From a virus, in IMG/VR virus record IMGVR_UViG_3300034198_013208, positions 1 to 26,075 of that record: a DNA stretch of 26,075 bases, one strand, 5' to 3'. Positions 902 to 22,221 of this stretch are shown piece after piece. Below the pieces are notes generated by a model that was not told where the DNA came from, made no database searches, and worked only from the letters and a program-made list of their open reading frames with translations. Numbering within the stretch: the first letter of the stretch is position 1; each line of letters starts with the position of its first letter. The position numbers and the translations under genes were made by a program.

Positions 902-2452
902 TTATGTTACTGTAGTTGTTGGAAAAGATTGCCAATTAGTAGCATCCATTTTAACAAAACATCTTGGTCCTCCTGTAATAGCTGTGAAAAAAATTTTAGC
1001 ACCTCTTGGATAAGATCCATTAGGATAAGTAGTATTTAACCAAGTTTGTGTAGGAAATGTTAAAGTAAAATTATCATAATAAGTTTCTGCAAATGAATAC
1101 TTATCTTCTTGAGTTCTTTTTCCATTAAACATATTAGTTTGTCCTTCAATATTTTCAACAATCCAATAACTACCATCCCAAGTAAATTTATACATATCTC
1201 CAGGATATGTTACAAAGTCTGCCACTAATCCACCAGCTATTGTACCAAATCCATATACATTTAATAGAGTTGAACCATTATGAGTAATAACTCCAAAGTC
1301 ATTGTTTCCTCTTGTTGTAAGATAAAGTTGTTGTCCTCTAACTGAAGGTACAGGTAAAGATACATAAGATGTTGAAAGTATTTGAGTATTCCAAGGAATA
1401 GCACTAAGAGCTTCATTAAAATCATATTGCAATACAGGGTAAGGTCCTGGAGGTGCTTGTGCAGATACTTCTCCTTTTGTTTTAGGTGCATTTCCTTTAT
1501 TAACTCCTCCATGAATAGACCATGAAATAGTGTAATCTTTATTTACAGTAAAGACACTATTACTTACATACATAGGATTTAACCCTATTGATATACGATT
1601 AGAAAACAAAGTCATATCAAAACTAGGTGCTATATATTCTATTTGGTAAATACCTATAATGTTATTAGAACCTACTTCAGTTATTTGAATAAAGAATAAA
1701 GTGCCAGGATAATCTACTCCAAAATCATATAATGCTGTCCACCAAGCTTCATAATTTGTACTATTAATATCATCAAAATTTACAACAATTCTTGAAAGAG
1801 TATTTAGATTTAGAGTATCAGCTACAAAATAAGTTGACCCTGGTGCACCTACAATATTAGTAGTTGTTAAAAATTTCCATCTTCCTGAGTTAGAACCATC
1901 ATTACCACTTATTCCTATACCTGTAGGACCTTGAGGACCTGTAGCACCCTGACTAGCTAATAAAGCAAAACAAGGATTAACATCAGGAGGTGCACAAGCT
2001 GTACTAGGGCAATCTCCTCCACTAGCAGGAGTAAAAGTTAATCCTCCTATGGTAGAAGGAATTTCAGATAAAACACAAAGAACTTGAGGAAGAGCTGAAC
2101 CAGTAACAGTAAAATCATTTCCAAAACAATCTGTTGATTCAAAAACTCCTGTTCCTGTCATTATATAAGAATAACAAGGAGCTGAATCACTAGTTGGACA
2201 AGTTACATAATAAGAAGCACCATTATAACCTACTGCATCATTTTCTTGATATACAACACAAGTAGTCCATTGGCCTTGCCAGTTTAATCCAGCAGGACCT
2301 ACAGCACCATTTGCTCCAGGAGGACCTTGTAAACCAGTATCTCCTTGTGGTCCTTGTGGACCTTGAGGGCCTGTAAACTGATTACTATCACAACAGAATA
2401 ATCTGTGTAATATACTTTCTAATTTATTTAATCTTTCTTCTAAACCTGCCAT
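902..2452 (-). CDS. Collagen-like tail fibre with CBM5/12-like module (516 aa)
   Basis: Residues 1-22 form a short amphipathic helix (MAGLEERLNKLESILHRLF) that could trimerise. A collagen-like Gly-X-Y run follows at 28-54, then a module beginning GLNWQGQW (about 56-165) with the GxW...Y...DAVxYxGxSYY pattern of CBM5/12-like domains, here enlarged and Cys-rich. A second Gly-X-Y run spans about 168-187. The remaining 330 residues are beta-rich with no recognised motif and probably form the receptor-binding or trimeric tip. A homologous collagen-CBM-collagen block occurs in the 435-aa fibre upstream. The ATG at 2452 is clear, and the next gene starts 5 bp after the stop. The fibre role is inferred from architecture and position. 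Confidence 0.8.
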   Translation of the reverse strand: MAGLEERLNKLESILHRLFCCDSNQFTGPQGPQGPQGDTGLQGPPGANGAVGPAGLNWQGQWTTCVVYQENDAVGYNGASYYVTCPTSDSAPCYSYIMTGTGVFESTDCFGNDFTVTGSALPQVLCVLSEIPSTIGGLTFTPASGGDCPSTACAPPDVNPCFALLASQGATGPQGPTGIGISGNDGSNSGRWKFLTTTNIVGAPGSTYFVADTLNLNTLSRIVVNFDDINSTNYEAWWTALYDFGVDYPGTLFFIQITEVGSNNIIGIYQIEYIAPSFDMTLFSNRISIGLNPMYVSNSVFTVNKDYTISWSIHGGVNKGNAPKTKGEVSAQAPPGPYPVLQYDFNEALSAIPWNTQILSTSYVSLPVPSVRGQQLYLTTRGNNDFGVITHNGSTLLNVYGFGTIAGGLVADFVTYPGDMYKFTWDGSYWIVENIEGQTNMFNGKRTQEDKYSFAETYYDNFTLTFPTQTWLNTTYPNGSYPRGAKIFFTAITGGPRCFVKMDATNWQSFPTTTVT

Positions 2453-2470
2453 GATTTCAGTTTTATATTG

Positions 2471-3778
2471 TTATATGTTGTTCATTATTTCTACAGTCCA
2501 ATATCCAATAGATCCTCCATATTTACCTATAAAAGTAAATCTGTAAACTTTTTGAGCTTGTAAACTCATACTACTATTTCCATTTCCTAAAGGAGTTATA
2601 AAATAGTTATTAGCTCCATCATTTCCAGGATTAGGACTAGACCAAAGAGTAATTACTCCTACTGTTCTTACATATAAAACATCTGCTGTAACTGGACTTA
2701 CAGGAAGACCATAACTAAAACCTGTAGAAACACAAAAAGTAGAAGTTTTACTAATATCTGGAAAAGGAGCACTGTTTGTATTAGAAGCTAAATTTTCAGT
2801 TGTAGGTACTTGTGTTCCACTACTTGCACCTAAAGGATTTATAACTTCTACCATAAATACTTTATCAGAGCCACTTGTAGTATTAGCTAAAGTAAATCTT
2901 ACATATCTATTTGGTTCTAAAACAAAATTAACTTGAGAAGCAAACCCATTTGGTTGTAAAAATCTAGCATTATCTAAAGGTATAATAATTAAGTTTAATG
3001 TTGTAGACATATTTTGAACAACAAAAAACTCTCCTGTAACTTTACCTATATTAGAAAAACCTAGATAATTATTTGCTCCACTTGTAACAAAACCTCTTGT
3101 AAAAGTTTTTGTAATCTTAGAAGTTGGAGTTGCAGGATTTCCAGCAATGGCTGATGAATTACTATTTAAAGATTCTTCAGTAAAGTTAGCTCCTACACCA
3201 GGAACTCCTTGTATTCCTTGAATACCTTGAGCTCCTTGAGCAGCAAGTAATGCCCAATTAGTAGGATCTAAATTAGGTGTAGTAGCAGAAGGTCCTACAG
3301 GATCTATACAAAACCAAGAGGAACCTCCATAACTTACTGCATCATCAAGAACATACACTCCTGCTGCAGACCAAGTTCCTCTCCATTCTAATCCAGCTGG
3401 TCCCACAGCTCCTGGAGTACCAGGTATACCTTGTGCACCAGTTTGACCTGTAGCACCTGTTGCACCAACAAGAAAAGTTGGAAAAAAGTTATAACTTTTT
3501 TGAGAATAATCTATTCCAAAAATTATTAAGTTATTTGGATAAAGAAAGTTAGTAGGTAAAAGACCTACTTCTCCAACAAATTTAGGTTCTCTCCATTCCC
3601 ATCTAGTTTGTTCTAAAGCACAATAAGCAATCATACCTTTAAAGTAAGTATATGCCAAGTTACTGCTTGGACCTAGATAAGCTAGATCAGCTTGGCTTAA
3701 TTTATACACTTTAGCATCTAAAGGTATTTGAGAAGGAATTCGTAATCCTACTGGAATATCATTTACTGAATTGCTCAT
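2471..3778 (-). CDS. Collagen-like tail fibre with shared N-terminal anchor (435 aa)
   Basis: Residues 1-98 match the N-terminus of the next gene upstream (MSNSVxDIPVGLRxPxQxPL, then GMIxYCxLExxRxEWR and VGEVGLLP). This is therefore a common anchor that attaches different fibres to the same site on the virion. Gly-X-Y collagen-like runs lie at about 105-129 and 181-194. They flank a CBM5/12-like module at 130-178 (GLEWRGTWSAAGVY, DDAVSYGGSSWFC, NWALLAAQG). The C-terminal 240 residues are beta-rich and unrecognised. Expected role: a receptor- or glycan-binding fibre or appendage. Confidence 0.8.
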   Translation of the reverse strand: MSNSVNDIPVGLRIPSQIPLDAKVYKLSQADLAYLGPSSNLAYTYFKGMIAYCALEQTRWEWREPKFVGEVGLLPTNFLYPNNLIIFGIDYSQKSYNFFPTFLVGATGATGQTGAQGIPGTPGAVGPAGLEWRGTWSAAGVYVLDDAVSYGGSSWFCIDPVGPSATTPNLDPTNWALLAAQGAQGIQGIQGVPGVGANFTEESLNSNSSAIAGNPATPTSKITKTFTRGFVTSGANNYLGFSNIGKVTGEFFVVQNMSTTLNLIIIPLDNARFLQPNGFASQVNFVLEPNRYVRFTLANTTSGSDKVFMVEVINPLGASSGTQVPTTENLASNTNSAPFPDISKTSTFCVSTGFSYGLPVSPVTADVLYVRTVGVITLWSSPNPGNDGANNYFITPLGNGNSSMSLQAQKVYRFTFIGKYGGSIGYWTVEIMNNI

Positions 3779-7898: not shown

Positions 7899-8705
7899 TT
7901 AGTTATTAATCTTAGACAATATCATTAATTTAATATCCTGATTTTCTTCTTTAGAAAGGTACTCAGCAACCTCTATTTCATCAATACCTAAAGGAGAATC
8001 CATGTGATAGATTCTTTGACCTTCTCTTCTTAATACTGATTTTTGAAGTGCTTCTAAAACAAGAGCATGTGCTGCTGTTTGTTTTTTATCCATATTCAAG
8101 AATCTTAAAAACTCTCCGGCATCTTTTTGAATTATCTTATCTAACTCTACAGCAACAAAATCTGCAGACTGATTCTTCATATTCTTACCACCTAATACAA
8201 GTATTAATTGTACTTTTCTATCTAAGCTTAGTTTAGAAGCTTCAATAATTGCAGTGTTCTTTTGTTCTACTTTACTTGCTAAAACTGATGCTTGTTCTGC
8301 TTCATCAAAGATTACATGAGTAGCTTCTGGCCACATACCTTGATCATACTCTGCCATTGAATTAGCAACAAACTTACTCGCTTTCATTACTCTCACTTTA
8401 ATGAAATCTAAAGGGTTATCTACATTAAAGAACATTGTATTGTTCTCTAATTTAACAACTGCCATGTTAGAATCCCAAAATGGATGAGGTGTGTCTGAGT
8501 TATAATTATCTGTTAAATCATAACTTACATTCTTTTTAGTCAATAACTCTTTAACTTCTGCTGGACTTAATCCTGTAGCATACTTCATAGTAGTTGCATC
8601 AACTAATGCTTGAATCTTCTTTGGTCTTGTGAAAGACTCTTGACCTGTTTTATTGTGCCATCTCTTTGCCTCAATAGGTCTGACTTCAACTTTTACTGAA
8701 CCCAT
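7899..8705 (-). CDS. Unknown virion-module protein following MCP (268 aa)
   Basis: I do not recognise a family. The protein is soluble and mixed alpha/beta. It begins MGSVKVEVRPIEAKRWHNKTG and continues with a Lys/Glu-rich helical C-terminal half (ADFVAVELDKIIQKDAGEFL, LVLEALQKSVLRREGQRIYH). It lies between the MCP/micropeptide unit and the connector-like gene, 5 bp before the latter. A head-completion, vertex or internal head protein is possible from context only. A terminator-like hairpin separates it from the MCP, so it may be expressed by read-through or from a weak promoter in the 93-bp gap. Confidence 0.6.
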   Translation of the reverse strand: MGSVKVEVRPIEAKRWHNKTGQESFTRPKKIQALVDATTMKYATGLSPAEVKELLTKKNVSYDLTDNYNSDTPHPFWDSNMAVVKLENNTMFFNVDNPLDFIKVRVMKASKFVANSMAEYDQGMWPEATHVIFDEAEQASVLASKVEQKNTAIIEASKLSLDRKVQLILVLGGKNMKNQSADFVAVELDKIIQKDAGEFLRFLNMDKKQTAAHALVLEALQKSVLRREGQRIYHMDSPLGIDEIEVAEYLSKEENQDIKLMILSKINN

Positions 8706-8769
8706 AATTTTTTCTCTTTAAATTAATGAACTTATTTTTAGGAGATTACCTTACTCCTTTTACCACCAA

Positions 8770-8791
8770 AAGCTCCCTGTTACAGGAGCTT
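8770..8791 (-). terminator. Hairpin terminator after MCP and micropeptide
   Basis: AAGCTCC at 8770-8776 pairs with GGAGCTT at 8785-8791 around an 8-nt loop. Read on the minus strand it is followed by TTTT. It lies just after the 17-aa ORF and would cap the MCP transcript. A further small GGAG/CTCC hairpin follows before the next gene. Confidence 0.6.
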
Positions 8792-8798
8792 GTTAGTT

Positions 8799-8852
8799 TT
8801 ATTTTCTAGGTCTAGGTCTAGAACTTGGTTTAGGTTTCATAGAACATGCCAT
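8799..8852 (-). CDS. Candidate 17-aa Pro/Arg-rich basic micropeptide
   Basis: The ORF encodes MACSMKPKPSSRPRPRK and sits between the MCP stop (17 bp upstream) and a terminator hairpin (7 bp downstream). It is therefore the last cistron of the MCP transcript. The peptide has seven Lys/Arg and four Pro and no acidic residue. The RPRPRK tail could bind nucleic acid or the capsid interior, or act like a proline-rich antimicrobial peptide; none of these is shown. A second in-frame ATG would give 13 residues. It is too short for statistical support, so the case rests on position and composition. Confidence 0.4.
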   Translation of the reverse strand: MACSMKPKPSSRPRPRK

Positions 8853-8869
8853 GACTATAATGTTTTAAA

Positions 8870-10324
8870 TTAGTTACGAGATAAAATTAATTCTCCACAT
8901 TTAGTGATGTCATGGATATGGATACCACATGATTTTTCAACATGCATTTCATAGTAAGAACCAGAGTGTGCAGAAGAACCACCATTTTTAGGACCATAAG
9001 GACCATACATACCTTCAACATAAGTAAAGGCAAAACCATCTTTTTTACACATGATTTTGATGTTAGAGTTTTTAGCTTCTCCTGAGAAGTCTAAGAATGT
9101 AATTCTTTGTGACTCAATTGGGAAACCTGTAACTTCATCAATCTCAAAGTTAATCTCTCTATCATCATAAAGAGGATTGTGGATCAACTCAAGAGATGCA
9201 CCATTTGCCATGTTGTATTTTACAAATTGGTAACCTGCTTCAAGTGCATTAGTGTGTATTGTGCTAGTCACTTTGTTAGTGTAAACCTCAATATTTTTAA
9301 TGAAACCTGATTTGTTTTGCCAATCTTGGATAGCTCTGTGGAATTGTAACATTCCATACTCTCCTGTAAAACCTTTAACCTGTCTTCCTTGACCTGGTTT
9401 AACTCTTGAGTAGAATATATCTTGTAAGTACTCTTCAATTAACTTAGCAGTTAAGTGAGAATATCTGTGCTGATGTGAATCTTCTAATTGTTCTTGGATT
9501 CCAGGACCCATTCTTACTGGTCTACCATTAGCACCTAATACAGTATCAGCAGATCTTGAATACCAATATCCTCTTTCTACTTCTCTGTACCATTGTTGCC
9601 AATATTCAACTTCAGCATAACGCATCCATGAGTTGTGATAAGCACCTTTAGAATCCGGGATAGCTACAGCTAATACTTCAGTAGAAGCATAGTCAGTAAT
9701 TCTGTATTCTTTACGATATTTAGACATTCTGTTACGGAAAGCAATTGGTAAACTGAATACAGTTGAACCTGATTGCTCAGCAGCTTCTTCATATTGAGAG
9801 AATAATTTACCCCATTGTTGTCCTGGATTCAAATATTTAACAGGCATAAATGCTTGTGGATCATCTGAATTCATTCTTACAGTGTAAACTGTACCATCAC
9901 CATGTTTAACTCCTTGATTTTGGATTCTCACTTGGTATTTCTTGTTAGAAGTACCTGGCATGATAACATCTCCTGGTAAATACCAGTTTTCATCAAGTTT
10001 AATTTTAAAAGTTTTCTTAAATTTACCTGGAGTATTGTTACCAGATTCCATGTTTTCTACAACAACTAGAGGTCTAGTGTTTGCACCTTTCAATTCCCAT
10101 TCCCATTCTGTGTTACCAATAGTTTCTTCTGTTTTGGAATTACCCATTAACAAAGAAGACATTGGGTTGTCAGAATAATAATTCTGAGCTGAGAAAAGTT
10201 TGTCCATTTCTCCTAAAATACGGTGTGGTTTAGCAATCAGAGCAGCACCTAAGTGAGACTGCTCAGTCATGTTGGCATTCCACTCCATCTCTTTTACGAG
10301 AAGCTTGCTTCCTAATGTAGCCAT
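8870..10324 (-). CDS. Major capsid protein (484 aa)
   Basis: Size, soluble mixed alpha/beta composition and position directly after a scaffold-like gene, behind terminase and portal, fit an HK97-fold major capsid protein. Recognisable stretches include the N-terminal helix region, LFSAQNYYSDNPMSSLLMG, and NTEWEWELKGANTRPLVVVE, which I associate with MCPs of crAss-like and related Bacteroidota phages. Two others are DENWYLPGDVIMPGTSNKKY and the Gly-rich YVEGMYGPYGPKNGGSSAHS near the C-terminus. No propeptide cleavage site is evident. It carries slightly more GC-rich, better-spaced codons than its neighbours, as expected for the most abundant protein. The start is ATG at 10324 with an A-rich leader (TTAAAACAAA). 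Its transcript ends with the micropeptide and hairpin. Confidence 0.8.
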   Translation of the reverse strand: MATLGSKLLVKEMEWNANMTEQSHLGAALIAKPHRILGEMDKLFSAQNYYSDNPMSSLLMGNSKTEETIGNTEWEWELKGANTRPLVVVENMESGNNTPGKFKKTFKIKLDENWYLPGDVIMPGTSNKKYQVRIQNQGVKHGDGTVYTVRMNSDDPQAFMPVKYLNPGQQWGKLFSQYEEAAEQSGSTVFSLPIAFRNRMSKYRKEYRITDYASTEVLAVAIPDSKGAYHNSWMRYAEVEYWQQWYREVERGYWYSRSADTVLGANGRPVRMGPGIQEQLEDSHQHRYSHLTAKLIEEYLQDIFYSRVKPGQGRQVKGFTGEYGMLQFHRAIQDWQNKSGFIKNIEVYTNKVTSTIHTNALEAGYQFVKYNMANGASLELIHNPLYDDREINFEIDEVTGFPIESQRITFLDFSGEAKNSNIKIMCKKDGFAFTYVEGMYGPYGPKNGGSSAHSGSYYEMHVEKSCGIHIHDITKCGELILSRN

Positions 10325-21431: not shown

Positions 21432-21483
21432 TTATTGTTAAAAATTTTTTTAAAATTTTGGTATGTGTGGACTACCCTACATC

Positions 21484-21499
21484 AAAACCCCCACTGATT
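21484..21499 (+). repeat. AAAACCCYYACTKATT motif, copy 1
   Basis: The sequence is AAAACCCCCACTGATT. The same 16-mer pattern recurs at 21737-21752 and 22185-22200. This copy lies about 50 bp before a candidate 27-residue ORF. It may be a phage promoter element or operator. Confidence 0.5.
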
Positions 21500-21535
21500 T
21501 TTAGGATTACAAGTCCCCTCCGGCATAAAATAGAA

Positions 21536-21655: not shown

Positions 21656-21736
21656 AGAGCTTAGACTTTGACTGTGTGTCTTGTCTCTCTCTATGTATAT
21701 AAAGTATATCTTATCTACTATCTATAATATCCTTTC

Positions 21737-21752
21737 AAAACCCTTACTTATT
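21737..21752 (+). repeat. AAAACCCYYACTKATT motif, copy 2
   Basis: The sequence is AAAACCCTTACTTATT, 14 bp upstream of the OB-fold gene's ATG, followed by AATAGTATTAACTTATG. Copy 3 is likewise followed by AACTTATG. The shared motif-to-start layout suggests a promoter or translation leader. Confidence 0.55.
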
Positions 21753-21766
21753 AATAGTATTAACTT

Positions 21767-22165: not shown

Positions 22166-22184
22166 TTGCTTTGAATCTCATCTT

Positions 22185-22200
22185 AAAACCCTCACTTATT
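22185..22200 (+). repeat. AAAACCCYYACTKATT motif, copy 3
   Basis: The sequence is AAAACCCTCACTTATT, just beyond the SSB-gene terminator and about 22 bp before an ATG preceded by AACTT, as in copy 2. Confidence 0.5.
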
Positions 22201-22221
22201 GTAGGGATAAATACTCAACTT

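Follow-up and report, generated by a model that had tools for sequence, protein, structure and literature searches.

Protein J of the phiX174-like phages is very short and basic, its gene adjoins the capsid gene, and it is essential; these phages are ssDNA microviruses. Oncocin and apidaecin are proline-rich antimicrobial peptides, short and cationic, in which Pro and Arg alternate. A catalogue of phage small proteins has reportedly been assembled by Fremin et al. in 2022, and the members covered in a review of phage small proteins are mostly host-directed (PMC11323111). Here we describe a 17-codon open reading frame (ORF) in the slot behind the major capsid protein (MCP) gene, which ranks among the most conserved slots in crass-like phages. 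The ORF was analysed within a stretch of 26,075 nucleotides of viral DNA, referred to below as the window.

The locus behind the capsid gene

The phage in the window belongs to the Crassvirales by its MCP (PF23898 Crass_capsid, E 2e-160; phrog_11589 major head protein, E 3e-207) and by a match to CrAss_Ring_3_4 (E 1e-6). The MCP gene is followed by genes in the gp33 and gp34 positions, an order that matches crAss001, and the minus strand is common to all genes around the ORF site (Table 1). The nearest named relatives are Flavobacterium phages of the genus Fipvunavirus, with 74% DNA identity over the region. The placement of the ORF behind the MCP gene by the first-pass annotation was confirmed; its count of seven basic residues in the peptide is to be corrected to six. 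Elsewhere in the window, repeats of the type CCTTGNGGACC on the plus strand of 1916-3466 suggest that minus-strand tail-region proteins contain collagen-like Gly-x-Pro runs. A 28-nt repeat (TCAAAACCC...) occurs three times close to a switch in gene direction (21482-21509, 21735-21762 and 22183-22210), possibly as a promoter or regulatory element.

Table 1. Features of the window at the ORF locus
Feature	Position	Strand	Basis
17-codon ORF, MACSMKPKPSSRPRPRK	8799..8852	minus	sequence; ATG..TAA read 8852 -> 8799
Spacer from MCP stop to ORF start, 17 nt	8853..8869	minus	sequence
MCP gene, Crassvirales type, directly upstream of the ORF	8870..10324	minus	PF23898, phrog_11589
Hairpin behind the ORF	8765..8797	minus	window fold, folds of 31 distinct sequences, alignment
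Gene after the hairpin, 268 aa, phrog_16383; crAss001 gp33 position	7899..8705	minus	gene order in crAss001

The hairpin is found once in the window, where it folds at -15.7 kcal/mol (z -3.2). All 31 distinct versions of it fold as one long stem-loop; the 3' arm (GGAGCTTTTGGTGGT / GGAGCUUUUGGUGGU) is invariant across the clade, and where the 5' arm varies, pairing is mostly retained, through G-U. The first-pass annotation had described a terminator behind the ORF. A strong hairpin does stand there, 1 nt past the ORF stop, but its label as an intrinsic terminator is doubtful because the full fold pairs its four U within the stem, with no U-run after it. A terminator scan matches a short stem and then a U-rich stretch; in the longer stem, which is favoured, those U are paired. 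We infer that the hairpin is just as likely to stabilise the mRNA 3' end or to be a processing site as to terminate transcription.

Comparative evidence for a selected gene

The related IMG/VR material comprised 80 loci encoding close MCP relatives and 46 stretches that contain the hairpin motif, two sets that overlap. The comparison was based on 35 distinct sequences from the MCP stop to the hairpin core, and all counts are of distinct sequences because some metagenome contigs may share one population. The ORF is present in 17 of the 35 gaps, which measure 74-104 nt, and absent from the other 18, which measure 18-22 nt. Every gap longer than 30 nt (17/17) thus carries a complete ORF of this type, and no decayed copy was seen among the 35. 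The gaps of the group in which MCP stop and ORF start are joined as TAAGATG (74, 80, 89 and 104 nt) are spaced by multiples of three only. In the group of the window the ORF lengths are six bases apart and the tails after the stop one base apart.

The 17 gaps encode 10 distinct peptides of 17, 19, 22 or 27 aa. Each peptide contains a single Cys, a KPKP motif and 6-9 Lys/Arg, and none has Asp or Glu, which extends to all of them the lack of acidic residues already pointed out for the window peptide. A PRP core is present in three of the 10. The start codon lies 1 nt past the MCP stop in eight of the peptide types and 17 nt past it in the two of the window's group. A frameshift fusion with the MCP was ruled out for the window type by an in-frame stop within the spacer, ahead of the ORF; in the TAAGATG types the frame of the ORF is open upstream, so that such a fusion is possible.

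Selection acts at the level of the protein. For the 13 codons that could be aligned in 13 distinct sequences, pN was 0.06 and pS 0.43 (pN/pS 0.14). All 13 sequences are of the CKPKxGG type; just three sequences of the MAC type, to which the window belongs, are known. The 14 variable sites of the CKPKxGG-type sequences are distributed over codon positions 1/2/3 as 1/3/10 (binomial P 0.004). Between L003 and L004 the ORF is identical letter for letter and the spacer differs at 4 of 17 sites (Fisher P 0.002); the window ORF differs from theirs by one changed codon and a two-codon indel. The homology of the MAC and CKPKxGG types is putative, based on composition and slot and not on a significant alignment. 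Shuffling of the 78-nt gap (40,000 shuffles) gave an ORF of 17 aa or more in 2.9% of cases, and one that also had at least 10 K/R/P residues in none.

The ORF is almost certainly a real gene under selection, judged from these comparisons. The first-pass annotation had considered chance less likely and had named stops or frameshifts in relatives of the same layout as the pattern that would speak against the gene; the data strengthen the former, and the latter were not seen. They also favour its proposal of a coding cistron that would be placed for late production with the MCP. The conservation behind the MCP that it had suggested checking is seen in part: the peptide is intact in the 17 gaps and, which it had not foreseen, missing from the other 18. 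Sequence evidence alone can thus show that a 17-codon gene is real and under purifying selection, yet missed by annotation.

Distribution across relatives and other occupants of the slot

Presence and absence of the ORF were traced over a tree built from 44 MCP genes. The state switches about 11 times on this tree, with at least five switches forced by supported branches, and it differs even between MCPs that are more than 99% identical. In the pairs L009/L010, L019/L049 and L040/L041, the MCPs are nearly the same and the ORF status differs. Roughly half of the distinct relatives that share the MCP-hairpin layout are without the ORF, which makes it, on sequence grounds, an accessory and dispensable gene; the peptide is not a needed capsid part, because close relatives with near-identical MCPs manage without it. 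Such natural pairs with and without the ORF would allow direct functional tests. Two isolates, FpV4 and FPSV-S29, are among the phages without it.

A peptide of the ORF type is absent from the MCP slot of the 16 other crassvirus genomes examined, crAss001 included, and a search with the pattern AARCCNARRCCNARR found no second copy in 17 related records. In some distant MCP relatives, the sequence behind the MCP encodes MKCGCGKPKPVVEGLKPRPKPIVR, MGCGCGKPKTGTTTSKPKPIFRPRTK, MRCGCGKPKPFVPGQKPRPKPQAK or a very basic ORF of 48 aa, the last in L204 (MAKSKSTRMRRKSTKSLKK...). The peptides of L190, L191 and L192 start with MKCGCGKPKP, MGCGCGKPKT and MRCGCGKPKP, respectively. Tight coupling of MCP and peptide is not universal, because a hairpin stands between the two in L191 and L192. 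Most other distant MCP relatives have just a terminator-like hairpin behind the MCP. One contig with a crass-like MCP (L083) is assigned to a Nanoarchaeota metagenome bin and is probably mis-binned.

Further small genes were observed nearby. In L009, L010, L020, L028, L033 and L040 an extra small gene precedes the gp33-position gene, past the hairpin (or the HNH gene), and its kind varies (MAKKVKDDGKMKG.., MAENVTLGQKRVQ.., MITPIET..). A 27-aa ORF, MIPKTKKAPKLLKKKKPKITKRKMKKK, lies about 1 kb upstream of the MCP gene in L060 (at 1964), L061, L062 and L063. HNH-type endonuclease genes between the MCP and gp33-position genes in L012, L028, L055 and L001 mark the slot as a homing hot spot. The annotation splits the MCP gene itself into two parts in cr50_1 and cr118_1 (L390, L391), and in cr50_1 an HNH gene separates the two. 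The ORF was also considered as the remnant of an HNH gene; this was rejected, as none of the HNH proteins ends in a KPKP tail.

Possible roles and relation to known systems

The reading that we prefer, tentatively and with somewhat less than even confidence, is that of a translated, selected and dispensable late gene whose cationic accessory peptide binds nucleic acid or the virion. The nucleic-acid-binding or capsid-interior role proposed in the first-pass annotation would agree with the data. Ribosomes finishing the MCP would reinitiate on the ORF, 1 nt (most relatives) or 17 nt (window) past the stop. Reinitiation is presumably the simplest route of expression, and the peptide would therefore be made together with the capsid protein. 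An extended, wholly cationic chain would then bind nucleic acid or an acidic virion surface, the cysteine could provide a disulfide anchor, and the peptide may tune packaging or particle stability, as a small cassette that would be gained and lost between the MCP stop and the hairpin. A peptide of 17-27 aa and such composition is unlikely to have a fold of its own; it can bind polyanions and form one disulfide. If it does belong to the virion, we know of no comparable accessory internal peptide in tailed phages. According to the crAss001 structure paper, tail and portal-vertex proteins of that phage use disulfides, and its passages on gp33, small proteins and peptides describe no comparable small component (PMC10172136).

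Other explanations account for some of the same observations. A chance ORF in an intergenic gap would agree with a length of just 17 codons and with absence from many relatives, but the comparative data contradict it: with no decayed copies, length steps in whole codons, constrained amino acids and uniform composition in all 10 peptides, it is extremely unlikely. It is also very unlikely that the cassette is a selfish or protective insertion which breaks the target of the HNH endonucleases of the slot. FpV4 and two loci of the clade compared here, L012 and L028, do have an HNH gene between the MCP and the next gene, in place of the ORF and of this type of hairpin, but protection requires no conserved frame, the frame of the ORF is under purifying selection, and relatives with a bare gap are common.

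Another alternative is a role in cis, whereby ribosomes stopping beside the hairpin would govern its folding, and with it mRNA processing, stability or read-through, the peptide being a by-product. In the window the conserved hairpin starts 1 nt past the stop; its core follows the ORF stop by 19 nt in the TAAGATG types and the MCP stop by 18-22 nt in relatives without the ORF. The distance from stop to core is, however, just 6-7 nt in the window's group, the same hairpin is kept by ORF-less relatives, and amino acids are selected while synonymous sites are free, which a pure cis role fits less well; we regard it as quite unlikely. A host-directed accessory peptide is possible, if improbable on balance. 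Such a small late product would act on a host or competitor target, in anti-defence, host takeover or antimicrobial-like inhibition of ribosomes. It would explain the patchy presence, an accessory distribution of fast turnover that such a role fits as well; the Pro/Arg-rich cationic composition also agrees with it, and phage small proteins often target the host (PMC11323111). Against it stand the site, which lies among structural genes and not in a region of early or accessory genes, and the scarcity of the PRP core of proline-rich antimicrobial peptides.

Returning to the cationic accessory peptide, comparison with databases gave no annotated relative. The longer members had nothing significant in PHROGs (at best one weak match each, phrog_2069, E 0.08, unknown function), and tblastn of the 24-32 aa members against INPHARED (50,697 phage records) returned nothing or T7-type kinase noise at E of at least 5. 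The family may thus be without an annotated relative in either collection, although this absence is weak evidence because short, low-complexity queries have little power. Among the IMG/VR matches listed are many tiny CGCGKPK peptides from other phages and other slots (e.g. MGCGCGKPKRPKPRGK, MNRLGCGCGKPKPTPPPIKLPNNN). They resemble the window family in being tiny and in having KPK and a Pro/Lys tail after Cys; they differ in genomic slot and in having two Cys, and the likeness is one of sequence pattern, homologous or convergent. The matches listed as L257-L336 include, from a variety of phages, numerous tiny GCGCGKPK peptides that have Pro/Lys tails; a common family of 41-47 aa (MCATCGCGKPKDKHGMKTL...) is also among them. 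MAC..KPKP matches in unrelated phages, although suggestive, are possibly convergent and were left out of the evidence. They are ORFs of 12-15 aa reading MAC..KPKP..K or similar (L132:5779-5826, L155 on the minus strand, L159, L164 and L170), several of which sit in head or tail gene blocks; that of L132 (MACGEKPKKKPKPRK) lies a few ORFs behind an MCP and that of L155 (MACKTKPKPPKKK) behind a portal gene.

With phage small proteins in general the window family shares very short conserved ORFs that annotation misses and that are often accessory, and it is unlike the mostly host-directed members of the review (PMC11323111). The peptide resembles oncocin and apidaecin in being short and cationic with alternating Pro and Arg, which had led the first-pass annotation to propose an antimicrobial-like function. 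This proposal is weakened by a PRP core that is not conserved across the family (3/10); the family is, moreover, without a leader or export signal and is an intracellular phage product. Protein J offers a parallel in layout, as it is likewise very short, strongly basic and coded beside the capsid gene, and the peptide perhaps works like it. J is, however, essential and required for the particle, whereas the window peptide is dispensable, absent beside MCPs of more than 99% identity, shorter, equipped with a Cys and encoded by a dsDNA tailed phage. A wider view, which we consider fairly unlikely, is that single-Cys, KPKP-tailed micropeptides form a mobile family swapped behind crassvirus capsid genes as virion tuning parts; they would then be dsDNA-phage counterparts of J, possibly anchored to the capsid by a disulfide.
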